From Bolinopsis microptera (Eukaryota; Ctenophora; Tentaculata; Lobata; Bolinopsidae): 64,000 nt of DNA. Where the stretch lies: positions 21,882,828 through 21,946,827 of the forward strand of contig NC_087076.1 in the NCBI RefSeq assembly GCF_026151205.1, written 5' to 3'. Numbering within the stretch: position 1 is the first letter of the stretch; every line of letters starts with the position of its first letter. Of this stretch, positions 1-54,190 are shown one piece after another. The position numbers were made by a program, and so were the translations under genes. A model generated the notes under the pieces. The model ran no database searches and was not told where the DNA came from. It saw only the letters and a program-made list of their open reading frames with translations.

Positions 1-95
1 CTGGGGACACTTTCTGGGGACACGTTCTGGGGACACGTTCTGGGGTCACGTTCTGGGGTCACGTTCTGGGGTCACGTTCTGGGGTCACGTTCTGG
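1..95. repeat. 13-bp tandem repeat at window edge
   Basis: About seven units of ttctggggtcacg; the leftmost ones carry 'gacac' in place of 'gtcac'. The array probably continues to the left of the window. No coding potential is evident. Confidence 0.9.
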
Positions 96-1453
96 TTCTG
101 TCTATTTTCTTTCTCTGGACTGATTTCACGTTCAGTCAGCAAAAGTTGAACACTTATCCCATTCATGCTCTAGACGTTTCATTTCATGATTTGTATTTTG
201 TTGTTTCACTGGTAGATAATCCAGACTGGAGATCTGTGGAGATATGCCGTATAATCAGCCCGTTGGTAGGCAAGTAAGTTTTAAAACTAGATACTCGTTC
301 TGCTGCGAAGCTGCCTCTGTGGTTTCGTTGATAGGAAGATTTTGTAAATTTCAATACTCTCATCGAATATGTGGTAGACACCGGCGTTTATAATAATTGT
401 GAAACCCACGTACACGTTTCTGATTGATTACGGTTGAATGTTTTTACAAATCGTGCATGTCCGTAGTCTAGCTGGCTTACCGTTGGTTCATCAATTTGTT
501 AATTATTTTATAGGTTTAAATTCGAAAAAAAGTGCACATTTTGTCAAGACGTATATATTCGTAGTACCTACGCATTTGTTGTCATAGAAACAAGTTATAA
601 TTCAGCAGCAGATTCGGTATCCCTCAAGCTCATTACTTCCCCAAATCTTGGGTTATTTCAGTCAGACAATCTTCTGACGTATAGGTGCACTCTTTTACGA
701 TTTGATTCAAAAATCTCCCATTTGATTGGATCCCGGCAAGACACATTTAAACTCCTTATTAACATGTTAAATAGTTTTGGCATATTCGCAGGGAAAGAAC
801 CATCGCACTCGCCATGCTGGCATTAAACACACGCCATGATTCTGTAATGGCTGCGTTCCCATTGGTTCCCAGTAACTGGTACTGGGTCAGGTGAACCAGT
901 CAGCTGGCTCGGTCTTGTCACGTGGGCAGGACCAGCCAACCAGAAGGCAGCATCCTCAAGAACGGGGTTTTATTCTAGAGTACCTTTCAGGGAGGCAGCA
1001 ATAAAGCAGTTTAATAGATGGCTTGTGATTGGTTAACCGGCCGGCCAATCACAGACGATCTCGTGGTTTTGCGCCGTCTGATTGGCTATAGAAGTCAGTC
1101 ACGCGGCTTTCAGCTGTTGACCGATATCTTTGATAATCTGGTCACTGCTTGGAGCTTCTTTTTGGGGGGTCGCTGTTCTTCCACCGGTGCTCTAACTTCC
1201 TCTCCGAACCGAACATCAGTTCGTTTTGAGTGGTATCCGGAGAGATTGTGTAAAACACAGGCTAAGTCAGCGACTGACCCGTTTATCAGGGAGACAGCCT
1301 GTAAACTGACAGTCAGACTGGTCATGGTGCTCGACACATAAAATTAAGATTCTAATCTCTCTCGCCCGTAATTTGACTGTCAGATTTGTGACAGATTGTC
1401 AGAGTATCTTCATATTTGCTCTCAGAGATTCTCGCTGAACTCCCTGACACTTT
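96..1453. other. Non-coding stretch, nothing recognised
   Basis: The only open frames are short (about 108 codons at most, 1018-1341) and resemble no family I know. I searched for the missing RRM1 and early RRM2 exons of the CELF gene and did not see them here. Confidence 0.6.
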
Positions 1454-1624
1454 CTCATTCGGTAATATTATTTGTGCCTATCCGTGTCGTGTTCACCCTC
1501 CAGCTCCCTTCTCATTCGGTAATATTATTTGTGCCTATCCGTGTCATGTTCACCCTCCAGCTCCCTTCTCATTCGGTAATATTATTTGTGCCTATACGTG
1601 TCATGTTCACCCTCCAGCCCCCTT
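1454..1624. repeat. 57-bp tandem repeat, three units
   Basis: Units start at 1454, 1511 and 1568. Each opens with ctcattcggtaatattattt and closes with ctccagctccctt, with few substitutions. Removing an internal 37 bp from this unit gives exactly the 20-bp unit of the array that follows. Confidence 0.92.
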
Positions 1625-2094
1625 CTCATTCCTCCAGCTCCCTTCTCATTCCTCCAGCTCCCTTCCCATTCCTCCAGCTCCCTTCTCATTCCTCCAGCTC
1701 CCTTCTCATTCCTCCAGCTCCCTTCTCATTCCTCCAGCTCCCTTCCCATTCCTCCAGCTCCCTTCTCATTCCTCCAGCTCCCTTCTCATTCCTCCAGCTC
1801 CCTTCTCATTCCTCCAGCTCCCTTCTCATTCCTCCAGCTCACTTCTCATTCCTCCAGCTCCCTTCTCATTCCTCCAGCTCCCTTCTCATTCCTCCAGCTC
1901 CCTTCTCATTCCTCCAGCTCCCTTCTCATTCCTCCAGCTCCCTTCTCATTCCTCCAGCTCCCTTCTCATTCCTCCAGCTCCCTTCTCATTCCTCCAGCTC
2001 CCTTCTCATTCCTCCAGCTCCCTTCTCATTCCTCCAGCTCCCTTCTCATTCCTCCAGCTCCCTTCTCATTCCTCCAGCTCCCTTCTCATTCCTC
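1625..2094. repeat. 20-bp tandem repeat, about 23 units
   Basis: The unit is ctcattcctccagctccctt, almost perfectly conserved; rare variants carry a single change such as 'cccatt' or 'ctcactt'. Because 20 is not a multiple of 3, all three forward frames read through as Ser/Pro/Leu-rich translations. These are repeat artefacts, not genes. Confidence 0.95.
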
Positions 2095-3442
2095 GTGATT
2101 TGATAGCGAGTTATTAGATTTGCTGTCTGGTGTTCAGATTCCTACATGTTAGATATTATATAAGCTGAGCATGTTCAGGTTTTTAATGAAACATGTACCA
2201 AGCCCCACCTTATTACCCCTGCCTTATCATCCTTATCACGACCCACTCTAAGAAGGTGCAGTTTTGCAGCAGAATATTCGCGAGTTTGACTGGTGATGTC
2301 ACAATGGTGTCCCCTCCTCCGCCTCCTCCTCATTACATGCAAACACTCCTTTACTCACCAACCAATTACACTAAGTAGTCCGCCACTTAATTTGCTTCAC
2401 AAAATATATGTCGTCCAGCTCTTTCAAGTACACTCGACCGCCAGCTCTGTTACTTTGTGTCTCCTCCGCGACAACTGAGAAAACGTTGGAGCTTCGGAGC
2501 ATTTTTGTCGTTTGAATGTTTGATTTTTTGTTCGGATTTTAATTTTTTACGCGAATTTAATATTCAAGCCACGTGAGGAAATCATAATTTCAGTGCGTTA
2601 GTAATTAATATCGAATGCTACACTAACAATCCTTCTGTACCACATGCGTATCGTCCAATTTACTTTGGATTATAAATTAATATGAACTAATCTAAAACAT
2701 AATTGAGTCCGATTTGTTCATTATCCTCCCCTGGTTGTGGGGGCGGAAACAAATCGGCCCAATCAATTCTCAGCTAAATTTATCGTTAATTAGCATTGTC
2801 TATAACTTGGATTAATCTCGGTCACCCCACGCTGTATAACTATATTCACTTCTCACCAGGTTAAACTTGTCCGCTGAGCTCAGCCTTACTCGCTCATTTT
2901 TTAACGTCAGTTTTATAGTTTAATCGTGATAATTGATAGATAATAATTAATTATTAGATAATTAGTGTTTTCTCCGTTTAGCTTTCTTAAATTACTCTGA
3001 TTTAAAAATTAAATCAAATGAACTCGCAGGTTTTTTTTTTCTTCATGGTGACAACTTCGCACTCTGATGGGGCAATTCGACCCTCACTTAGTCCTTACTG
3101 GCCTAGATATTTCAGCAAATTACCCCATTAACATTCCCGCTGATGGGATTTTGGAAAGCTTTCCCTCGAAATTAGCCCAATTCCCCTCCATCATCTCCGG
3201 TAAAGCTCCACCGAACTGTGCCATCTCCCTAAACTTTCGAGTCTTGTAATAAAGTCCATTAGGATTCTAGCAGTCACGTGACGGCGAATATTATTCCATA
3301 TAGAGGAAATTTTAATATCATTAATGCGTTCTCTCTGTACCGCTTGGAGGCAGGTCTGTGAGCAAGCTTGGTTCAACCGTTCTCCGGGAGTCGTCCAGGT
3401 TAATTTAACTTGGTGCTGGCCCCGTCCCGGTCTCCCTCATTA
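2095..3442. other. Non-coding stretch, nothing recognised
   Basis: AT-rich sequence with only short chance open frames. No exon with convincing splice sites or domain similarity was seen. Confidence 0.55.
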
Positions 3443-42420: not shown

Positions 42421-43494
42421 TTCCATGTTTTTAATTAAAAAATCGACGTACGACCACAGTATATAAATTTTGAAACAATTAATTATTTGGTAATTGATGC
42501 ATCTAGAGTCATTTTAATATAGCTTGTATACATTTTTATTGTTATGCATAGATAGATAGCCTGATGAATCGAGCGCTAATTCTAATGCAGAAGAAATGAC
42601 TACTTATGAGCAAACAAACCGCCTAGTTTGATGTTAACTTTCGTATTCTTTACTATTTAAGCAAATTGTATTGTTGGCTGATATTTTTCCAGCTTTAAAT
42701 TTGATATCGTCCACAAGTTTCGGGAAATGATGTTTGTAGACTTGATAGTAGAGGCTCTTACGGGCAAAAAGACGTGTTTTCTGCTACGAGTTTAGAGACC
42801 TAACCGCTAATTGGACACAATAGTATGATGTCTAAGGATCGATAATATGTTAAGAAGTATAAATTTGGCCTTATTAGTCACGTGCTATACCAATGCGCGT
42901 TTTAAACTTTGACAGTCTATTACTCTAAGGCAAATAAAGTAATTATATCCATATTTTGTCAGCAATAAGATCACATTATTTTCTATTTAGTGTGAAAATA
43001 TGAGCTAGAACGGACATAATCTCGCTGAGTTATAGCTGTTTGAAATTTATGATGAACGCGCGGGTGCCAATTGATAACAACTAAATGCTTTTGCGCGTAG
43101 TGCGCGTCGAAAATTTGGCAAAAACGCTTTTTTTTATTTTATTTTATTTTTTTTATTGAAATCTTTCAAATCAGTCAATTACATACAAGTTTACACAATG
43201 AATTAGTTAAATATAATATTGTCCTCTAAGCATGGATTGTCAAAGTTGAAATTGTCTCGGACAAAATGTATGTAACCAAAGGACCTGAGGGTCACCAAAA
43301 CACAGATATTGAGTGCAAATGCAGCTCCTGCACAAGCATGGGCCCTTATAAAATTGTAATAAGTTACTTTAAACAAAATCACACACCCATTCAATCAATT
43401 CATAAAATATTGTGCTGTGAGATGAAATTGAGAAATATGTGAATGCAGACAGCAAGAATAGATAATCTTGAATAAACTATTTTACGGATTTGTT
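42421..43494. other. Intergenic with a possible LINE 3' tail
   Basis: On the minus strand, the sequence up to about 43130 ends in an A-rich stretch containing AATAAA-like and AAATAAAATAAAA motifs, as LINE copies do. A 63-codon frame (43394-43203, -) may be remnant coding but matches nothing I recognise. Confidence 0.4.
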
Positions 43495-43917
43495 TCTATT
43501 TTTTTTTATTTGAAAATTCAATTAATCATTATATATATAAATCAAGCGTTACATTTCAGCCATGCAAAATTACAATGACATATTTTGATTACTAAATGAT
43601 AAATGGTACTGCAATATAAGTTGCTTAATGTTTGGCCGGATGACAACTAACGAGAAAAATAAACTTGATTATATAATAATTAATTCGGCTGAACCAACAC
43701 ATAGCAAGAGCCACATTAACGTTGGGGCCGTCTACCAAATTTGAATGACAAACATTAACAAGAAATCAAACATATCATAAATAATTATAAGGATTTTGTT
43801 CATTACAATTCCGTCACAACTGATGAAGAAAAAAGAAAAGGACAAGCAGATAGGAAATTGGACGGACAGAATTGTAACCAACAAAAACAAATTTCTGAGA
43901 CTCATAAGACTGATGAG

Positions 43918-46900
43918 CTAATCTGGCCAGACTGTATCGGCAGCCCAGAGGTACTTGATCAGTTTGGCCTTAAAAGTAGAAATCCGTTCTGACTGCCGGA
44001 TACATACTGGTAGACTATTCCATTTCAGCATAGATCTATGAAAAAAGCTATTTCGGAAGGCATCCGAGCAGGGCACAGTGGTACTCATGTAAGTTGAAGT
44101 ATCCGACATATCAATTATTTGAGCATTGTGCCTAGTGTATCGGGTGCCCTCTGGACGGCATAGGACTATATATGTAGGGAGCGAAACTGGAATTATGCTA
44201 TTCACTATTTTATAGAAGGTCATAAGATCGTTATAAATAAACTTCTGTTTAACAGGGAGAATATTTAGTTTCTTTTGCTCTGTAGCAAGTTTATCGTCAT
44301 TATAACTGGAGTAAGGTTCACCATTGATCCATTTCATAGCCCTCTTTTGGATAGCAACAAACTGTTGAAGATGAGTTGCAGATTGAGGGGACCATATGAC
44401 AGAACAATGTTCAAATATAGACCTAATTAACGCTAAATAGAACGATCTTTTCTGCCTTTTATCAGTAGTGAAATGACATGTTCTCTTAAGTAGTCCAAGT
44501 CTAGATGTAGCTTTGGAAACAAGCGCTTTACATTGTGCACCCCAATTAAACCTGGAGTTTATTGCGACTCCTAAATCTGACTGAGAGGGCACAAAGTCAA
44601 TATCACTTCCAGAAAGTTTATAAAAGAAGGTATTGAAGGGCAAGTTATCCAGCACGTTTCTTTGCAGGGACACAGAGAGGGCTTTGCACTTTTGTGGGTG
44701 GAACTTCATTCGATTTCTCACTGACCAATCATATAATCTATTGATGTCATTTTGGATTATGTGATGGTCAGGGTAACCAAGAATCTCCCTCCAAATTTTA
44801 GTGTCATCTGCATAAAGGGCGATATTGGTGCCTTCAGAGACACAGGAGAACATGTCATTTATAAATATTACAAACAATAAAGGGCCAAGTATAGAACCTT
44901 GAGGGACACCAGACCGAACTGGTAGAGAAGAAGACGTTTGGCCTCCTATCACTACTTGTTGTTGTCGCCCCTCAAGATAGGACTTAATAAATTTAAGCAT
45001 TAGTCCATCGACATTAAAAATATTCTTTAATTTACTTAAAATGAGGTCATGCGAAACGCTATCAAAGGCTTTCGCAAAATCAAAATATATTATATCAGTC
45101 CTGGACCTGTTATTCAATGCAAGTGCAAGATTGTCCGTGAAAGGTATCATTTGGGTTGTGCATGAACGTTCATTAACAAAACCGTGTTGTCGGTCATCCA
45201 ACAGATCAGAACACGCAGCGTATAATGCAGTCTTTATGCACCTTTCAAAGACTTTCATTACAAGAGATGTTAACGAGATAGGCCTGTAGTTCTCGACCGA
45301 AGACTTATCGCCCTTTTTGTGCACTGGTACTACAAGTGCCAGCTTCCAATCAGGGGGTATGCATCCGCTCGAGAAAGACAGGTTAAATAAAACACTAAGT
45401 GGGTATGCAAGGCTTTGGGCACAGTTTTTGAGGACTCTCCCATGAATCCCATCAGGGCCAGGGGCCTTGTTAGGATTTAACTTTTTAAGAATCAACAGAA
45501 CATCTTCTCTACTAAACACAAGACTTGAAAAACACTCATCACGAAAATCTATGTCAATGCCATAATCGCTCTCTTGAGAAAACTGCTCATAAAAATATTC
45601 GTTAAAAAGGGCAGCTTGATCAGATGGATTGTTTCGAAAGCGATTTTGATATTTGACAGTTTCAGGGATCCTGGTTGACTTTGATTTAGATTTAACGTAG
45701 GTCCAGAATTTCTTGGAGATAAGAGCATCATCGGAGTCATCCTCAACACTGAGTCTCATTCTTTCGTCCATCAAATTTTTAAATTTTGTGCGAAATGCAC
45801 GAAACTTTTGTTTATGAGACTCAGAGTTGCTCCCCTTATGCCTTATTCTCCATTTCTCCTTATTTCGTAAGAGACGATCACATTCGGAGTCATACCATGG
45901 GGGCTGGAACTGAGACTTAATGGTCTTTTTAGGGATCCATCGGTCACAGGCTGCACCGAGAACTCCTCTGAATCGACTCCAGGCAAGATAAGGATCATTA
46001 CACTCAAATATACTATCCCAATCGATGCTAAATAACTCAGAATTCAGGCCCCTAAAATTACCTTTACTATAATTAAAGATCTTTCTTTTAGGCTGCTTAA
46101 TATACTTGGTCTTAATATCAATGTCAAATGTGATACAAAAGTGGTCGGACATACACATTTCGTTTTGATCTAAAACTTTAACATTCTTAATAAGGTTTTG
46201 AATGTTAGTGAACACAAGATCTAAGGTGTTGCCTGACTTGTGAGTAGGGGAGCTAATAAGTTGTGTATGTCCGAGGTCATCAGTGAGAAAATTTACAAAG
46301 CTAGAATGTAGCTGGCAAGATGACTGACCATCTGGCCAGGAAATCGAAGCCAAATTAAAGTCACCTACCAGAATGTGCCTTTGCAATTTTCTGGCAGATG
46401 CTAAAGTAACAAAATGTTTCTTGAAAGATTCAAAATTATCTAAGCCAAGCGTTCCTACTCTATAAAATGTTGATATACAAAAGTTTCTTCCACACTGAGT
46501 CTTAATTATGATGGATAATAATTCAGCTTGAACACTAACTTTAGAGAACTTTAGACTCGAGATATCAATGTCTGTTCTATGGGCAATCAGAACACCACCA
46601 CCGTTTTTTCTGAATTTCTTGGGCTGGGTTGCATCCACTGGATGCGATCTTAAGGATCGGTCAAGCCTAAATACTTTGTATTTGTCAGGGAGCACCTCAT
46701 TACTGAGAATGGAATTTTTCAGCCATGTCTCGTTTAGAATAATGATGTGAGGCTTATGTTTGTAGATATAACCATGGAATTCATGTATCTTGGTCATATT
46801 TAGTGGTGGTGTTCCTGATGCTAAATCGCGTGTATTTAGGAAACCATGGACATTATTGTAAACAACGGATAAATTTGGTCCAGGGTTCAGTAAGGAACAA

Positions 46901-47424
46901 TTACAAATTACTATCAGGGAAATATTAAGGAGAGATAGAAAAACCAGACCACACCTAGACATGACCCCAAGCCAGCTGCTGGTTATACTGAAAAGTAACT
47001 TAACAGTCTGTTTCGGTGACATGGTAGGTGACATTTTGGTTTTTGTGGTAGATAGCAATTTTACAGAAATTGCAGCTAAGGCTGTCCCAATGCCCCCCTC
47101 CCCCCTATACACAAGTTTAAAGTGTCTGAGAAAAATGGTACAAAATATTACCATAAAGTAAAGATTTATGGATGACCTCAAACATGGTACAGAGTGTATT
47201 TTAGGTTGTAGGGGAGCACCAGGGAGTATATTAGCATCGATAGTCAAAGAAAATATATACAAAATAACATAAAAATAAAATATACCCAATAGAGCACATA
47301 ACATATGACGAGACAGAAGACAGGACAACAAATTTTCCCCGTTACCTCTATTACTTTTACTGATGATAACATACCTAGAAAACATACCAGTTGCAACACG
47401 GTGTTGTTGAGCCGATATTCCCAT
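43918..47424 (-). CDS. LINE A ORF2: endonuclease and reverse transcriptase (1168 aa)
   Basis: Drives target-primed reverse transcription. Residues about 40-180 hold three hydrophobic, membrane-like segments, ending at NPGP (180-183), a relic-like 2A core. An APE-type endonuclease follows: VVYNNVHGF, ILNETWL with the catalytic Glu, GGGVLIAHR, VGDFN and MSDHF. The RT has NKAPGPDGIHG, WKLALVVPVHKKGDKSSVEN, YFDFAKAFDSVSHDLI, SGVPQGSILGPLLFVIFIND and YADDTK. A C-terminal thumb/connection region follows, with HFTTDKRQK and EHCSVIWSP. Family resemblance is to CR1/L2/Jockey-type LINEs. The ORF is intact. The N-terminal start is the first Met of the frame and is not certain. Confidence 0.95.
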   Translation of the reverse strand: MGISAQQHRVATGMFSRYVIISKSNRGNGENLLSCLLSRHMLCALLGIFYFYVILYIFSLTIDANILPGAPLQPKIHSVPCLRSSINLYFMVIFCTIFLRHFKLVYRGEGGIGTALAAISVKLLSTTKTKMSPTMSPKQTVKLLFSITSSWLGVMSRCGLVFLSLLNISLIVICNCSLLNPGPNLSVVYNNVHGFLNTRDLASGTPPLNMTKIHEFHGYIYKHKPHIIILNETWLKNSILSNEVLPDKYKVFRLDRSLRSHPVDATQPKKFRKNGGGVLIAHRTDIDISSLKFSKVSVQAELLSIIIKTQCGRNFCISTFYRVGTLGLDNFESFKKHFVTLASARKLQRHILVGDFNLASISWPDGQSSCQLHSSFVNFLTDDLGHTQLISSPTHKSGNTLDLVFTNIQNLIKNVKVLDQNEMCMSDHFCITFDIDIKTKYIKQPKRKIFNYSKGNFRGLNSELFSIDWDSIFECNDPYLAWSRFRGVLGAACDRWIPKKTIKSQFQPPWYDSECDRLLRNKEKWRIRHKGSNSESHKQKFRAFRTKFKNLMDERMRLSVEDDSDDALISKKFWTYVKSKSKSTRIPETVKYQNRFRNNPSDQAALFNEYFYEQFSQESDYGIDIDFRDECFSSLVFSREDVLLILKKLNPNKAPGPDGIHGRVLKNCAQSLAYPLSVLFNLSFSSGCIPPDWKLALVVPVHKKGDKSSVENYRPISLTSLVMKVFERCIKTALYAACSDLLDDRQHGFVNERSCTTQMIPFTDNLALALNNRSRTDIIYFDFAKAFDSVSHDLILSKLKNIFNVDGLMLKFIKSYLEGRQQQVVIGGQTSSSLPVRSGVPQGSILGPLLFVIFINDMFSCVSEGTNIALYADDTKIWREILGYPDHHIIQNDINRLYDWSVRNRMKFHPQKCKALSVSLQRNVLDNLPFNTFFYKLSGSDIDFVPSQSDLGVAINSRFNWGAQCKALVSKATSRLGLLKRTCHFTTDKRQKRSFYLALIRSIFEHCSVIWSPQSATHLQQFVAIQKRAMKWINGEPYSSYNDDKLATEQKKLNILPVKQKFIYNDLMTFYKIVNSIIPVSLPTYIVLCRPEGTRYTRHNAQIIDMSDTSTYMSTTVPCSDAFRNSFFHRSMLKWNSLPVCIRQSERISTFKAKLIKYLWAADTVWPD

Positions 47425-47618
47425 AGAACTTTAAAGTATATTATTAACAGAATTGTGTCTCGCCGTTGTGTTTTGTCAGGTATTGTGCTATAATATGAAG
47501 TAACATACATTATGCTATCACTTCGTTTGAATAATTATAAATAACATCCAAATGATCAGATCCAATAGGATACTGATGCAGACAATGAAAAATTTAAATA
47601 TTGAATTGAATTACCACA

Positions 47619-49130
47619 TCAGTATCCCAATGGATTAAACCTCTTTGAGTGTATGATTCTGAGATAGAACTTTGCCAACACTGGCATCCCAGCCTTGGGG
47701 CTGGGATGAATATCATAAAAGCCCCTATTGTCACATTTAGGAAATAATCTCTCGTTTCTGTTTCCATAGCGGTCTAAGAAAGCCCAAAAAACATCAAGGT
47801 AAAACAGTTTATGCCTAGAGCAGCGATCAAAGATCAAATTATTCATAGCACAAACATTACCAGGGATTTTATCTTGTCCGTTGGGGTGGACTGGTGGAAT
47901 GGCTTGTACAAAAACACGTGCATTTGGATAAAGTTTTTTTGCTGTCTTCATAAGGTCACTCACAGGGGTCTTGAGATGATTGACACCCTGGGTACAGTAC
48001 CGGATGTCGTTGGCACCGAAGCTTAAGAACAGTTTCTTTACCTGCACAAGAGGGTTCTTTGTATGAAAGGCCTCAATAGATTTCTGTATAGCTGAGATCT
48101 TAAGCCCACCCTTAGCTATGTTGGTGACAGTTTCTTTACCTCTACTGAGGCGATCAGCGTCCAATCGGGCAGCAAAGGAGTCACCAGCAATGAGAATGAT
48201 AGACTTCTGGTGTTTTTGAGAGTCTGTGATGGGAGCTTTTGGGGATACTTTATTAGGACTGTCGGATGTAGGAGAGGGAAGAATAGGAGATGAAGGGGAA
48301 GAGGAAGGTGTGGTTAACTTTCTGAAGGAGAGACTATACCTCCAACAAATTTCATTGTCAGAAGGTGCAACTCCTGGGGCAATCCTGTGCCTCATGACTT
48401 GCTGTGCACCAGGCTTCATGATGTTCAGTGTGCCATTGGTGGCAGGAAGGGTGAAGTCTGCGTTAATCAACTCTTGGGCTGGCCTTGACCTAGAGGCCCT
48501 AGTTGTGCGTTGTTCTACTTGGGTTGTATCGAGCACAAACTCAAGTGACCGCGGAGCCCCTATTGAGTAAGTGCAAATGGAGCTGGACTGTGATATTATT
48601 AGGTCTTCATCGTCTTTATGGAGGCTTAACTTAGCTTGCTGAGTGTCGTACCTAGTAACAAGGCAAGCATCCATGTTGTTGGTGGTGGAGGGGAGGTCAT
48701 TAATAAGTCCCATCAACTTAAAGATGCTAGGGAAGTTGTTGATGGGATGTGGCTTGTTAACTATGTTACCAAAGCAGTAGTCTTCTGATGAAGGGCTTAG
48801 CCATAGGGTGTGGACTTTTTTAGATTTGCCTTCAAGATTCATTGAATCTAATTCTTCTGTGATTTTCTTGAATAGATTTTCATCCATTCCAGGGAGGACT
48901 GGAACGTGCTCTACGAGCGCATGTGGGCTATACGAGGCATTTTGAACAGTAGTTTCCTTCTTCGTTTTCTTTTCCTTCTTCTTTTCATCTATACGTTCTA
49001 TTTTAGAAGCAAGCTTTTTCTCTTTCAGACTGTCCAGGATACTCTGAGTAAGTAGGGTATGCATGTGTTGCTTTACTTCAAGAGATAAGTTTTGCAGTAA
49101 GGCGAGGAAGTTGGCGGGCAGTGTTGGCAT
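47619..49130 (-). CDS. LINE A ORF1: AlkB-like dioxygenase plus SGNH hydrolase (503 aa)
   Basis: Two-domain ORF1. Residues 1-65 are Lys/Glu-rich and helical. Residues about 105-272 match AlkB-type 2-oxoglutarate/Fe(II) dioxygenases: KLSLHKDDED gives the HxD iron ligands (H171, D173), H248 in QQVMRHRI is the distal ligand, and WRYSLSFRK gives the RxxxxxR motif (R264, R270) that binds 2OG. AlkB enzymes remove alkyl groups from RNA or DNA bases. A Ser/Pro-rich linker leads to an SGNH/GDSL-like domain: AGDSFAARL (S318), FGANDIRY (G372, N374) and YDIHPSP (H475). The usual DxxH has D at -2 here instead of -3, so hydrolase activity is uncertain. Esterase-like ORF1s are known in CR1-type LINEs; I do not recall AlkB as a usual part. 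The next ORF downstream is the RT. Confidence 0.9.
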   Translation of the reverse strand: MPTLPANFLALLQNLSLEVKQHMHTLLTQSILDSLKEKKLASKIERIDEKKKEKKTKKETTVQNASYSPHALVEHVPVLPGMDENLFKKITEELDSMNLEGKSKKVHTLWLSPSSEDYCFGNIVNKPHPINNFPSIFKLMGLINDLPSTTNNMDACLVTRYDTQQAKLSLHKDDEDLIISQSSSICTYSIGAPRSLEFVLDTTQVEQRTTRASRSRPAQELINADFTLPATNGTLNIMKPGAQQVMRHRIAPGVAPSDNEICWRYSLSFRKLTTPSSSPSSPILPSPTSDSPNKVSPKAPITDSQKHQKSIILIAGDSFAARLDADRLSRGKETVTNIAKGGLKISAIQKSIEAFHTKNPLVQVKKLFLSFGANDIRYCTQGVNHLKTPVSDLMKTAKKLYPNARVFVQAIPPVHPNGQDKIPGNVCAMNNLIFDRCSRHKLFYLDVFWAFLDRYGNRNERLFPKCDNRGFYDIHPSPKAGMPVLAKFYLRIIHSKRFNPLGY

Positions 49131-49190
49131 CTTGTTGTGAAGTGTGGGAGGATCGGGAGGAGACTGGGTGATCCGGATAAGAGATCAACA

Positions 49191-49397
49191 GCAGGATGTT
49201 TCAGTGGCACCGTTGTAAACCCTAGCAATCTGGATCTGAAACAGTTAATAGGCCAGAGATTTATAGTTCAGAGTGAAAAAAAATTTGAATTATAATGAAC
49301 AGAGGTGTTGTAAAGAACTGTATAGCAGAAAAAAGAATGCAATACTTATCTAAAGGAGAAGTAGCTAATTTAAGGAGTTAATAAATTTCAAACATCA
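49191..49397 (-). other. Junction between LINE B 3' end and LINE A 5' UTR
   Basis: About 200 bases between the LINE B ORF2 stop and the start of LINE A. The boundary between the two elements cannot be set from one copy. Confidence 0.4.
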
Positions 49398-52300
49398 CTA
49401 GATCTCTAACAATAAAACTAACCTCGTACCAGACCGCAGGAGCCCTGGTAGTACAAGACTACCAGGGCAATAGGAAGAAACGATTACCACCTCCACAACC
49501 TGCCATCTAACTATTGAATAGTCAAGTTCAGAGTCCGAATCCACCGGGATAATTTTCCCCCACATGTAAGTGGAAAGTTTACTTTTAAAATCAGTGATAC
49601 TCTCTATCTCACGGATATCTAGAGGAATGTGATTCCACTTAGTGTGGGTCCTATAGAAGAAATTCTTGGCAAAAGCGTTGGAGCTTGCTCGAGGTGAGAT
49701 AGGGCTTACAAAACATAGAGAGTCCATGTGACTATTTCTGAGCCTTGAGTGGCCTTGAAATGGTTGCAAATATGAGGGTAAAGTGACAGGTATATGTTGC
49801 TTCACAATTTTAAAGAAGAAGATGAGATCCAAGAAGTCAAAGCGGTCTTCAATCGGCATAATCTTCAGCTGTCTGCATTTTTGAATGTATGTGGATGGTG
49901 GATAACTCATATACTCCTCGTGAAGAATCCACTTAATAGCACGCTTTTGGAGGCCCTCCAGCTTGCTTATCTGGGATTTTGTGACTGGTCTCCATATAAC
50001 CGAGCAATGCTCAAATAGGCTCCTCACTAAAGTGAGATACAGTACTCTACGACGATTTACGTCTTGGACAAAATAACAATTTCTTCTCGCCATGCCTAAT
50101 TTTTGGTTTGCCTTAGAAAGGACTTTGGAGCACTGATCTTTCCAATCGAGATTTGATGTCACAATTACACCCAGATCCTTTTCATGATCAACATAGTCAA
50201 GTGTGATTCTTCCCATGGAGTATACAAAGTTAAAGAGTGGTAGGACACTAAGGAGGGAAACTGTTTCGGATATCCTTCCTGCGACGGTGAGGACCTTACA
50301 TTTGTCGGGATGAAATCTCATTTTATTAGAAAGTGACCAGTCATGGAGATAATCAATGTCCTTCTGCAGTCGCAGGATATCAGACTCCGAAACAATCTTA
50401 CGCCAAATTTTAGTATCATCGGCATACAGTGACAGTTGTGTGCCTGGTGAAATCCCCACTGATATATCATCAATGAACATAATGAACAGCAATGGTCCCA
50501 AAATTGACCCTTGAGGTACACCAGACTGGGCGTTTCTCATAGAAGAAAACTTGCCACTTATCAAGACCTGTTGTTGCCTGTCTCTTAGATAATCAGTGAT
50601 GAATTTCAGTAGCCTCCCATCAATACCAAATTTGCTCTTTAGCTTAAATAATATAAGATCATGGTTAACCGAGTCAAATGCTTTGGCAAAATCAAAGTAG
50701 ACTACATCTGTTCTCATATTTTCATTCAGTGAGAGCGCTAGGCTGTCGCACAGTCCTACAAGATTAGTTGCACAAGATCTCTCAGCTCGGAAACCATGCT
50801 GTTTGTCATTGATCATGCCATTAGTAAGTGCCAATAACTCATCTCTTATTATGCGTTCAAGAACTTTTGTGATTAAGCATGTAAGAGAAATTGGCCTATA
50901 ATTTGAAACCTCATGTTTATCCCCTTTCTTGAATATTGGTACAATGTGCCCCAGTTTCCACTCCCTTGGTAGTGTCCCAATGTTGTAGCATGAATGAAAA
51001 AGTATTGATATAGGGTATGCGAGCCCAACCGCACAGTTTTTCAAAAGTTTCCCATGGATACCATCAGGTCCATAAGCTTTATTAGCATTAATATTGGAAA
51101 GGATTTTGCGAACCCTTCTGTGGTCAAATTCAATATCAAAGCGCCAATCATTAGAGTAATCTATATCTATGTCATAAGTTGATGCCTCAGAGAACTGCTC
51201 GAAGAAAAAGTCATTAAATAGGTTGGCCTGGTCTTCAGGGCAGTTGCGGACAGTGCCTTTGTGGCTTACAAACTCAGGGATCCGCTGACTAGCTGTCTTC
51301 GATTTGACATAGGACCAAAATTTTTTTGTTATTAAAGCACTATCATCAGATTCATTTAATGTTTCCCTCATTTTTTGAGCAACCACATTTTTGAAATTTT
51401 TCCTAGCAAGGGAGAATGCAATTTCAGCTCTATCACTTTTATGCCTTTCTTTATGTAATCTCACTTTCTTACGCCATGCATCATAACACTCCGAGTCAAA
51501 CCATGGATCTTGGCCATCAGTCTTGACAGAGCATTTTTTAACAAATTTATCTGTGACATTAAAAAGTTTGTCCTTAAATTTTTTCCATCCAATTTCAGGT
51601 TCTGTGCCATTGAGCAATGCATCCCAATTCGTGTGTCGGAGTTCATGGTTTAGCCTCTCCCAGTTCACAGTCTTAAAGTTATAGCACATACGCCTGACTG
51701 GCTTCTTCCTACCAACTTTAACGTTGATCTTAAAATTGATGGGGAAGTGGTCAGACTTGCAAGCACTATCTCTCTCACCTACCATTAGGTCATTAATATT
51801 TGACACAGAGTTTGTGAGCAATAGGTCAAGTGTTTTGCCTTTGCAGTGGGTAGGTGTTAACACACATTGTTGAAGGCCTAGATCAACAAAAGATTCAACA
51901 AAAGATTGCTCAATAGGACAGGAGCTGGCCAGGGTAGACCAGGAAACTCCGGTCAGGTTAAAATCTCCTAGTATGAAGACTTTACTCAGTCCTCTTCTTC
52001 TGAGAAGAGTTTTCAAAGACTCAACAATTTTTTCATGATTTGCGGAGCCCAGTGTACCAACACGATAACATGTGCATACAACAAACTTAATTCCAGTGGA
52101 TGTCTTAAATTCCACAGCAAGAATTTCTGCACCATACTTGAGACGAACTTCCTTTGAAGTTAGATCAAGGTCTGCTCTCACTGCAATCATGACCCCTCCA
52201 CCATTCCTCCTAAACCGGGTTGGATTAGAAGGATCTGGTGGATGAGTTTTCTTCGATCTATCAGAGCGAAATATCTTATATCTGTCAGGGTGCAGAAATT

Positions 52301-53027
52301 CACTATCAGCAATAGAACTCTTAAACCAGGTTTCGTTAAGTATTGCAATATCTATCTTAGCCTCATTAAGATAAGTCGACACTTCAAGACATTTAGTGGT
52401 ATCAATCATTGGATGGGCATTGTTCAGTTCACCAAAAGGGATGAGACCTTGAACATTCTGAAAGTAAACATTCAATTTATTACCATTCCCAACTCTAACA
52501 CCTATGGGAGACGGCCCTGGGTTTACAATTCCAGGGTTTACTAAAACTATCAAAAAACCATTCATCAAAAACAACCAAATTATGCATCCCGTGAGTGTAT
52601 TGCCGGTTCTACCAGTAAATATGCAATTTAAGTTCTTATGGATTGAAATCTGGCAAAATCTATATAAACCATCGAAACTGTAATTATTCCTCAGATAATA
52701 CATATTTGCTAAATATAAAAAGAAATAAACTGTAAAGCATCGGCACAAGTTAGGAACTGGGTATGTTGGTACAAAGGCTCGGCAATCATAAGTGACCCTA
52801 GAAAAAGCCAACCCACTTACCCCGACATATGTGATAGTGATTAGCGAAAAGTGACATATGAATATAACATAAAAAATATAAAATAATAAGCGAGAATCAA
52901 TGCAGCTGTCTAAATAATCAAAAATACTACCTGTACCACGTCTACGGTTCTGATGTTTGATGGATTTTGCAAAAGAATTTCCACTAAACACTCCAACTCT
53001 AAATCTGTATGTTACTAAATCGATCAT
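49398..53027 (-). CDS. LINE B ORF2: endonuclease and reverse transcriptase (1209 aa)
   Basis: Same layout as LINE A ORF2. Three hydrophobic segments lie within residues about 45-165, then NPGP at 169-172. Endonuclease: VYFQNVQGL, ILNETWF, RNGGGVMIAVR, LGDFNLTG and KSDHFPINF. RT: NKAYGPDGIHG, WKLGHIVPIFKKGDKHEVSN, YFDFAKAFDSVNHDL, SGVPQGSILGPLLFIMFIDD and YADDTK. No stop interrupts the frame. The last 30 or so residues lack a counterpart in LINE A and may be read-through of the 3' UTR. Confidence 0.95.
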   Translation of the reverse strand: MIDLVTYRFRVGVFSGNSFAKSIKHQNRRRGTGSIFDYLDSCIDSRLLFYIFYVIFICHFSLITITYVGVSGLAFSRVTYDCRAFVPTYPVPNLCRCFTVYFFLYLANMYYLRNNYSFDGLYRFCQISIHKNLNCIFTGRTGNTLTGCIIWLFLMNGFLIVLVNPGIVNPGPSPIGVRVGNGNKLNVYFQNVQGLIPFGELNNAHPMIDTTKCLEVSTYLNEAKIDIAILNETWFKSSIADSEFLHPDRYKIFRSDRSKKTHPPDPSNPTRFRRNGGGVMIAVRADLDLTSKEVRLKYGAEILAVEFKTSTGIKFVVCTCYRVGTLGSANHEKIVESLKTLLRRRGLSKVFILGDFNLTGVSWSTLASSCPIEQSFVESFVDLGLQQCVLTPTHCKGKTLDLLLTNSVSNINDLMVGERDSACKSDHFPINFKINVKVGRKKPVRRMCYNFKTVNWERLNHELRHTNWDALLNGTEPEIGWKKFKDKLFNVTDKFVKKCSVKTDGQDPWFDSECYDAWRKKVRLHKERHKSDRAEIAFSLARKNFKNVVAQKMRETLNESDDSALITKKFWSYVKSKTASQRIPEFVSHKGTVRNCPEDQANLFNDFFFEQFSEASTYDIDIDYSNDWRFDIEFDHRRVRKILSNINANKAYGPDGIHGKLLKNCAVGLAYPISILFHSCYNIGTLPREWKLGHIVPIFKKGDKHEVSNYRPISLTCLITKVLERIIRDELLALTNGMINDKQHGFRAERSCATNLVGLCDSLALSLNENMRTDVVYFDFAKAFDSVNHDLILFKLKSKFGIDGRLLKFITDYLRDRQQQVLISGKFSSMRNAQSGVPQGSILGPLLFIMFIDDISVGISPGTQLSLYADDTKIWRKIVSESDILRLQKDIDYLHDWSLSNKMRFHPDKCKVLTVAGRISETVSLLSVLPLFNFVYSMGRITLDYVDHEKDLGVIVTSNLDWKDQCSKVLSKANQKLGMARRNCYFVQDVNRRRVLYLTLVRSLFEHCSVIWRPVTKSQISKLEGLQKRAIKWILHEEYMSYPPSTYIQKCRQLKIMPIEDRFDFLDLIFFFKIVKQHIPVTLPSYLQPFQGHSRLRNSHMDSLCFVSPISPRASSNAFAKNFFYRTHTKWNHIPLDIREIESITDFKSKLSTYMWGKIIPVDSDSELDYSIVRWQVVEVVIVSSYCPGSLVLPGLLRSGTRLVLLLEI

Positions 53028-53109
53028 GGTGTTTTACAGGTGAGTATACTTGCCAGACTACAACTGCATATCATTAGCTTAACAAGGTTCAGAAGACAGC
53101 ACAAAAGAA

Positions 53110-54190
53110 CTACTGATAGATATAAGGATTAAAATATCTACTGTGGATGGCACGAATATAAAATCTGGCCAACACACCCATACCTTTCTGAGGATTGGGG
53201 TGAATGCCTTTGTTCTCAAATAAGGGATCAAATCTCTTAACAGGCTCACTTAGAGCTCTCTTAAACTTTGTAAAGGGATAAAACACATCCATGAAAAAGA
53301 ACCTCCTAAATACACACTCATTGTATAAAATCCTATTAAAATCCATTACCCTCTTGTTAGTTAATTTATTGTTATCATTCTGTAAAGGTAATGGCAATAG
53401 AGATTGAACATATACCTTACAGTTGGGAAATAATAGGCCTATCTTACCAAAAAGTTGCTTTACTGGTCCCCTCAAAATACCAATTTTATCCCCCACACGC
53501 CTAATATCGTTTGTGCCTACGCTGATCAGAAGCTTCTCAACGTGGACATCAGGATGTGCCGTGCAGTAGTCCTCCAACTGTTTCTGGACTTTGTCCATTT
53601 TTGCTCCGCCTTCTGCAACATTTACGACTGTGACTTTCCCTTTTCCCAGCTTTGCGGAGTCCAATCTTTGAGCATAAGAGTCTCCAGCAACCAACGTGAC
53701 TCTTTGCGCAGGTACTTGGGCTTCGGTGCCAGAAGCTGGTGTACTAGTCTCTGTGCTGATATTCTGAGAGCTAACTTGGCCACCAGATTTCACAATAGCT
53801 CGAAATGACAGGGAGTATCTTACTTGCTCCGATTTCTTTGGAGGCTCTCCCTTTGTGGCCGGCTCTGCTCGCACAGCATGCCTCAGATTCTGCTGTGTCC
53901 CAGGCCGCATTACAACAAGACTGTTGTTCTTCATCCTTATCGTCTTGACACAATTAGGTTTCCCAGTTGTGCCCTCGTAAAACTCAAGCGTCCGTTCACA
54001 TCCCAGTGAGAAAGAGCAAATCGATTTCTCCTGGTCCATTAGTTTCTCACCGTCATTGTGTATTGAAGTACTCGCTTGGTTGTTTCCATACTTGATGACC
54101 AGACATGAGTCCAGAGGTCCAGTTATCTCCGTACTCGAGTTTACAAGACTCAGGAGTCTTGCGGAGTGACAATATTCAAACTTCGATTAA
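53110..54190 (-). pseudogene. LINE B ORF1: AlkB-SGNH, 5'-truncated
   Basis: The frame is open from an in-frame stop near 54188 to 53110; the first Met is only at 54039, within the AlkB domain. Upstream of this Met the frame encodes LDSCLVIKYGNNQ and STSIHNDGEKL with the HxD pair (near 54060-54052). From the Met: H54 in QQNLRHAV as distal ligand, and RYSLSFR (R74, R80) as the 2OG motif. The SGNH part has AGDSYAQRL (S121), VGTNDIRR (G175, N177) and GIHPNP. The Asp of block V is not where DxxH would need it. The copy cannot make a full ORF1 protein from its own start. Confidence 0.82.

Follow-up and report, generated by a model that had tools for sequence, protein, structure and literature searches.

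The window analyzed here, a 64,000-nucleotide stretch of Bolinopsis microptera DNA (contig NC_087076.1, positions 21,882,828–21,946,827), carries a complete long interspersed nuclear element (LINE) of ∼6.0 kb with an A-rich 3′ end, which we call element A (43501–49510; this and all other window features lie on the minus strand). Its first open reading frame (ORF1, 503 amino acids, 47619–49130) had originally been predicted, with the strand unstated, to encode an AlkB-like demethylase fused to an SGNH hydrolase in a LINE. The LINE assignment is borne out by the adjoining ORF2 (1168 amino acids, 43918–47424), for which the ORF listing and Pfam gave an APE-type endonuclease and a reverse transcriptase, so that element A shows the esterase-type layout of an SGNH-containing ORF1 and an endonuclease-reverse transcriptase ORF2; it is provisionally assigned to a CR1/L2-like clade, a name that reflects the ORF1 layout. 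The ORF1 protein (ORF1p) begins with a helical part (residues 6–54, 48969–49115) that is Lys-rich at its end, with model helices at 5–13 and 16–53, and is coiled-coil-like by analogy. An AlkB-type 2-oxoglutarate (2OG)-Fe(II) dioxygenase domain follows (residues 67–274, 48309–48932; located by profile, predicted structure, and alignment), and then an SGNH hydrolase domain (residues 308–496, 47643–48209). Overall, element A encodes an esterase-type ORF1p in which an ALKBH2/ALKBH3-class AlkB dioxygenase separates the N-terminal helices from the SGNH esterase.

The residues on which the prediction rested are all present at the positions given, numbered on the full 503-residue ORF1 (numbers in alignment A1 and in the structure model, which lack Met1, are one lower). 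The HxD…H iron triad occurs in order as H171, D173 (within H171-K-D173-D-E175, 48606–48620), and the distal ligand H248 (48387–48389), followed by the 2OG-binding arginines of the RxxxxxR motif, R264 and R270 (48321–48341). We built two profiles, A1 with 66 rows and A2 with 17 rows hand-picked for diversity, whose identity averages 22%. Every A2 row keeps all five ligands (17/17), and in A1 the full set is present in 60 of the 64 rows covering all five (incomplete in P0004, P0042, P0051, and P0064; gaps in P0026 and P0054). Position 175 is Glu or Asp in every covered row (64/64 in A1, 17/17 in A2), and the acidic residue aligned with it is Glu175 in ALKBH2, Glu195 in ALKBH3, and Asp135 in AlkB (PMC3985658). 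The NxY pair, which stabilizes 2OG in ALKBH5 (PMC9289625), is non-standard, being T159-x-Y161 in ORF1; its first residue is Ser or Thr in 59 of the 64 covered A1 rows and Asn in 8 of the 17 A2 rows.

Searches of PDB sequences with these profiles placed ALKBH2 and ALKBH3 above other AlkB members: A1 matched ALKBH3 (E = 5.9e-16) and ALKBH2 (1.3e-10), and A2 matched ALKBH3 (3.6e-25), ALKBH2 (9.2e-23), and Escherichia coli AlkB (1.9e-8). Neither ALKBH5 nor FTO was matched by A2 at E ≤ 0.01, from which their exclusion does not follow, and ALKBH5 is absent among the structure matches listed, which proves nothing. The predicted fold of ORF1 likewise matches ALKBH3 and ALKBH2 as an AlkB-type double-stranded β-helix; clustering of the ligands was judged from secondary structure together with structural and sequence alignments. 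Several results weigh against assigning the domain to AlkB. Pfam gave no AlkB match in the single ORF1 of element A at E ≤ 1, a single-sequence PDB search with ORF1 returned no AlkB chain at E ≤ 1 (only 4c1b, at E = 0.49), and 43 of the 66 A1 members matched 2OG-FeII_Oxy_2 at E ≤ 0.01, compared with 60/66 for Lipase_GDSL_2.

The SGNH-like domain said to follow the AlkB part is real, being found by Pfam (1e-9), by profile, and as an SGNH fold in the predicted structure of the C-terminal domain. Its residues S318, G342, and N374 are present in 17/17 and H475 in 16/17 A2 rows, and among covered A1 rows the counts are 64/64, 63/63, 63/63, and 56/56 for S, G, N, and H, respectively. The OSK domain, the RNA-binding SGNH domain of Oskar, was matched by 8 of the 66 A1 members at E ≤ 0.01, which hints at possible RNA contacts of the SGNH part.

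The AlkB part is under purifying selection. Ratios of nonsynonymous to synonymous substitution (dN/dS, NG86 counts) were well below 1 in the informative pairs, with Fisher p < 0.001 for each of seven AlkB pairs: 0.165 for both A/L011 and L009/L011 in the element A family (non-independent, as both include L011), 0.174 for E/F, 0.050 for L044/L045 and 0.049 for L044/L046 (non-independent through L044), 0.124 for L035/L043, and 0.144 for the Helitron pair L033/L034. In the L044 pairs AlkB is under tighter constraint than residues 400–820 (0.18). A separate comparison of the window copy with L009 gave 0.113. Family B (AlkB dS 0), the window copy with L008 (AlkB dS 0.008), and between-family pairs (saturated) were uninformative.

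Copies of the element were also sought in the genome (264.65 Mb, 232 contigs). A protein search with ORF1, in which 85 of 644 candidates were scored, gave at least 88 matches, recurring on contigs C1–C13, and the 19 top-listed are full length, 95–100% identical, and stop-free; locus L002 is 99.5% identical to element A over 3116 bases. Because both ORFs of element A are open and near-identical full-length copies exist, the element appears to have been active recently.

A genome search with the PF13532 profile (150 of 587 candidates scored) gave at least 151 matches, all those listed being above the cut-off. Three loci were set apart as host-gene-like: L029 (ALKBH2-like), L030 (ALKBH3-like), and L031. 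The last has an ALKBH3-like AlkB ORF (1063–1950, plus strand) and, ∼700 bases downstream, a separate SGNH-like ORF (2662–3438, plus strand), which may be a domesticated pair or another element. We read 14 other AlkB loci (L032–L038 and L040–L046). AlkB was found in 14/14 by a profile built without this genome's loci except for the ORF1 of element A, and HxD, H, and RxxxxxR are present by eye in all of them. SGNH was found by profile in 9/14 and not in L036, L038, L044, L045, and L046, of which L044 has a weak Pfam match (0.0079) and the others SGNH by eye only. With coiled coils assigned by eye, the layouts are coiled coil-AlkB-SGNH (L032, L035, L037, and L043, and similarly L036 with SGNH at motif level), PHD-like finger-AlkB-SGNH (L040–L042; PHD weak, 0.003–0.007), and AlkB-coiled coil-SGNH (L038 and L044–L046; SGNH at motif level). 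Where downstream sequence was read, LINE identity was supported by an endonuclease found by Pfam (L035 and L047) or by eye (L040 and L046). AlkB is also present in a 478-residue SGNH family (L047 and L052), L047 having no PF13532 match.

Four SGNH loci were sampled as well. Both domains were found by profile in L050 and L052; L049, a coiled coil-SGNH ORF1, has SGNH and no AlkB by profile; and L051 has neither by profile, its SGNH-like end being seen by eye (PF13472 at 30.4 bits, below the cut-off). L049 leads us to reject the idea that AlkB is universal in the SGNH element ORFs of this genome, and because it has SGNH without AlkB, the esterase-type ORF1 appears to have acquired AlkB as an extra module, with loss as the alternative. 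In L050 a 518-residue ORF (74–1627, plus strand) seems to combine AlkB and SGNH with a part resembling reverse transcriptase (YADD by eye).

The reversed order, SGNH-AlkB, occurs in L033 and L034, in one long ORF each. L033 has DUF6570, and its continuation L048 has Helitron_like_N (Rep, 5.6e-23) and a PIF1 helicase (4e-22); the two were taken as one ORF on the basis of a 3388-residue open frame. On its domain content, L033/L048 is Helitron-type, with Rep and PIF1 helicase sharing one ORF with SGNH and AlkB, which precede DUF6570, Rep, and the helicase. A short ORF just upstream in L033 ends in GDVETNPGP, which we take to be a 2A-like motif.

A tree built from 26 AlkB domains places LINE families A–F with their homologues (81/98), L035–L037 in a separate group (97/95), L030 beside L031 (98/84), and the Helitron copies away from these; with 11 of 23 inner branches lacking a resolved order and a very long E. 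coli branch, its deep part is compatible with one capture of AlkB or with several. P0064 and P0013, which the motif pattern had cut wrongly, were omitted. Homologues with an organism in their name comprise six from Mnemiopsis leidyi (P0087, P0098, P0116, P0117, P0118, and P0120), one from a Moritella metagenome-assembled genome (P0097), and one distant Prorocentrum protein (P0124). P0097 is a PHD-AlkB-SGNH ORF1 resembling those of this genome and is probably eukaryotic contamination of the Moritella assembly. Among viral contigs, eight stretches fit a pattern and none was confirmed.

The ends of element A were set by copies L009–L011 and by an empty site in L020, which holds uninterrupted sequence at the insertion point. 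Element A is flanked by a 5-bp target-site duplication, AATAG (49511–49515 on the 5′ side and 43496–43500 on the 3′ side, where its first As are indistinguishable from the A-rich tail), and lies within element E, a 5′-truncated sibling LINE. The 5′ part of element E (49511–54160) is 99.7% identical to L021 and L027, and its 3′ part (43148–43500) is 100% identical to L020 over 353 bases. The 5′-truncated ORF1 of element E (53110–54160) retains SGNH and a partial AlkB above the Pfam cut-off, and an "ORF2" listed at 49398–53027 is the element E ORF2 running on into the 5′ untranslated region (UTR) of element A. Mobile-element ends (target duplication, 5′-truncated copies, and A-rich 3′ end) are present. 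E and F are sister families. The 5′ UTR of element A contains a perfect hairpin (49442–49468). Together with those lying 5′ of ORF1 in L012, L021, and L023, perfect hairpins (arms of 8–11 bp, CTTG-type loops) are present in the 5′ UTRs of four families, A, B, E, and F; none with arms ≥8 was found in family C (L017) or L047, and an Rfam scan of seven element loci gave nothing at gathering scores. ORF2 starts, in element A as in L021 and L047, with hydrophobic, membrane-like segments and an NPGP end before the endonuclease. This N terminus is constrained in E/F (dN/dS 0.17), and no constraint was detected in A/L011 (0.92, p = 1.0).

In cells, AlkB-type enzymes remove harmful methyl groups from RNA and DNA in single-stranded form. 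The best overall explanation of the ORF1 domain, which we rate as evenly balanced between right and wrong, is that it clears 1-methyladenine (m1A) and 3-methylcytosine (m3C) from the element's own nucleic acid and so aids reverse transcription. The AlkB part would bind the element's single-stranded RNA, and perhaps new cDNA, and would oxidatively strip Watson-Crick-face methyls that otherwise act as stops for reverse transcription; the SGNH esterase may work on lipids or membranes, as put forward for a zebrafish element. A LINE depends on a long RNA template that can be read through, which makes an eraser carried by the element itself the simplest interpretation. Such an enzyme would also provide esterase-type ORF1ps with the nucleic acid-binding fold that they had been missing (PMC3905857). 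Consistent with this, ALKBH3 takes m1A and m3C in single strands of DNA or RNA as substrates (PMC10816986), a modified base (m1G in that study) can block reverse transcription in a manner lifted by AlkB treatment (PMC7968990), and the flexivirus AlkB prefers RNA (PMC8234929).

The original prediction had also considered N6-methyladenine (m6A), and it is possible, although unlikely, that AlkB is an epigenetic eraser through which the element evades host control, clearing m6A from its RNA or 6mA from its DNA. An orchid Gypsy element provides a precedent (PMC9289625), whereas the leading profile matches to ALKBH3 and ALKBH2 and the Glu/Asp at position 175 speak against it, as does the Helitron with the domain pair, which has no RNA template, although its mRNA could carry m6A. 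The evidence therefore favors repair of the m1A/m3C type over m6A removal, the function itself being inferred. It is rather unlikely that AlkB serves mainly as a single-strand nucleic acid-binding module of ORF1p, with catalysis secondary or lost. Points in its favor are the single-strand binding of AlkB enzymes, the altered NxY pair of the element A clade, and a RepBase survey in which esterase-type ORF1ps had no structural RNA-binding domain (PMC3905857). The conservation of the five ligands, even at the low identity of A2, is nevertheless more than binding alone should need. LINE ORF1 proteins as a rule function in cis, on the RNA of their own element, and our analysis gave no positive evidence for an enzyme directed at host RNA, tRNA, DNA, or defense factors instead of the element's nucleic acid. 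We regard this as improbable, although it would be in keeping with the occurrence of the pair in two classes of element, and AlkB enzymes act on tRNA too (PMC7968990). Finally, a chance motif in a LINE ORF1 lacking AlkB homology, as the Pfam result for the element A copy might suggest, is refuted by the profile and structure matches, the homologues, and the purifying selection.

Beyond element A, AlkB and SGNH together might have become a general accessory module with which the mobile elements of this lineage, probably the ctenophores, repair their own single-stranded replication intermediates, carried in several layouts by many LINE families and in the reversed order by Helitrons; we consider this broader proposal a little short of an even prospect. 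If repair by element-borne AlkB is real, methylation or alkylation of the template must be enough of a limit on retrotransposition that elements carry an eraser against it, and mobile elements bring along their own nucleic acid repair. Esterase-type ORF1ps would gain a plausible RNA-binding domain, and because the pair recurs in LINEs and in a Helitron, the choice between damage repair and epigenetic erasure can be tested directly.

The suggestion that the AlkB-SGNH fusion is not a standard ORF1 layout agrees with full-text searches of the open-licence literature, in which no paper describing AlkB within a LINE ORF1 was among the matches listed. The zebrafish ZfL2-1 element (PDB 4c1b) resembles element A in its N-terminal helical/coiled-coil part, basic stretch, C-terminal SGNH domain, and endonuclease-reverse transcriptase ORF2, but its esterase-type ORF1p has no AlkB domain (PMC3905857); its insertions likewise make 5-bp duplications (PMC4245944). 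Human ALKBH3 and ALKBH2, the best profile and structural relatives, have HxDxE, H, and RxxxxxR in common with ORF1, but they are host repair enzymes with no SGNH fusion and keep the NxY Asn that is Thr in ORF1. The AlkB domains of plant RNA viruses (Flexiviridae; PMC8234929) are also carried by a selfish RNA-based replicator and were among the fold matches, but they lie within replicase polyproteins with neither SGNH nor reverse transcription. The paALKBH5-like ORF of a Phalaenopsis Ty3/Gypsy element also encodes an AlkB-superfamily demethylase in a retroelement, with m6A activity in vitro; that element differs in being of the long terminal repeat type, with a separate ORF of the ALKBH5 subfamily and no SGNH partner mentioned (PMC9289625). 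A platyfish Helitron carries an SGNH hydrolase gene, so that SGNH has been mobilized by a Helitron there as in L033/L034; AlkB is not mentioned in the excerpted account of it (PMC4021074), whereas the L033/L048 ORF joins SGNH and AlkB with DUF6570, Rep, and the PIF1 helicase.
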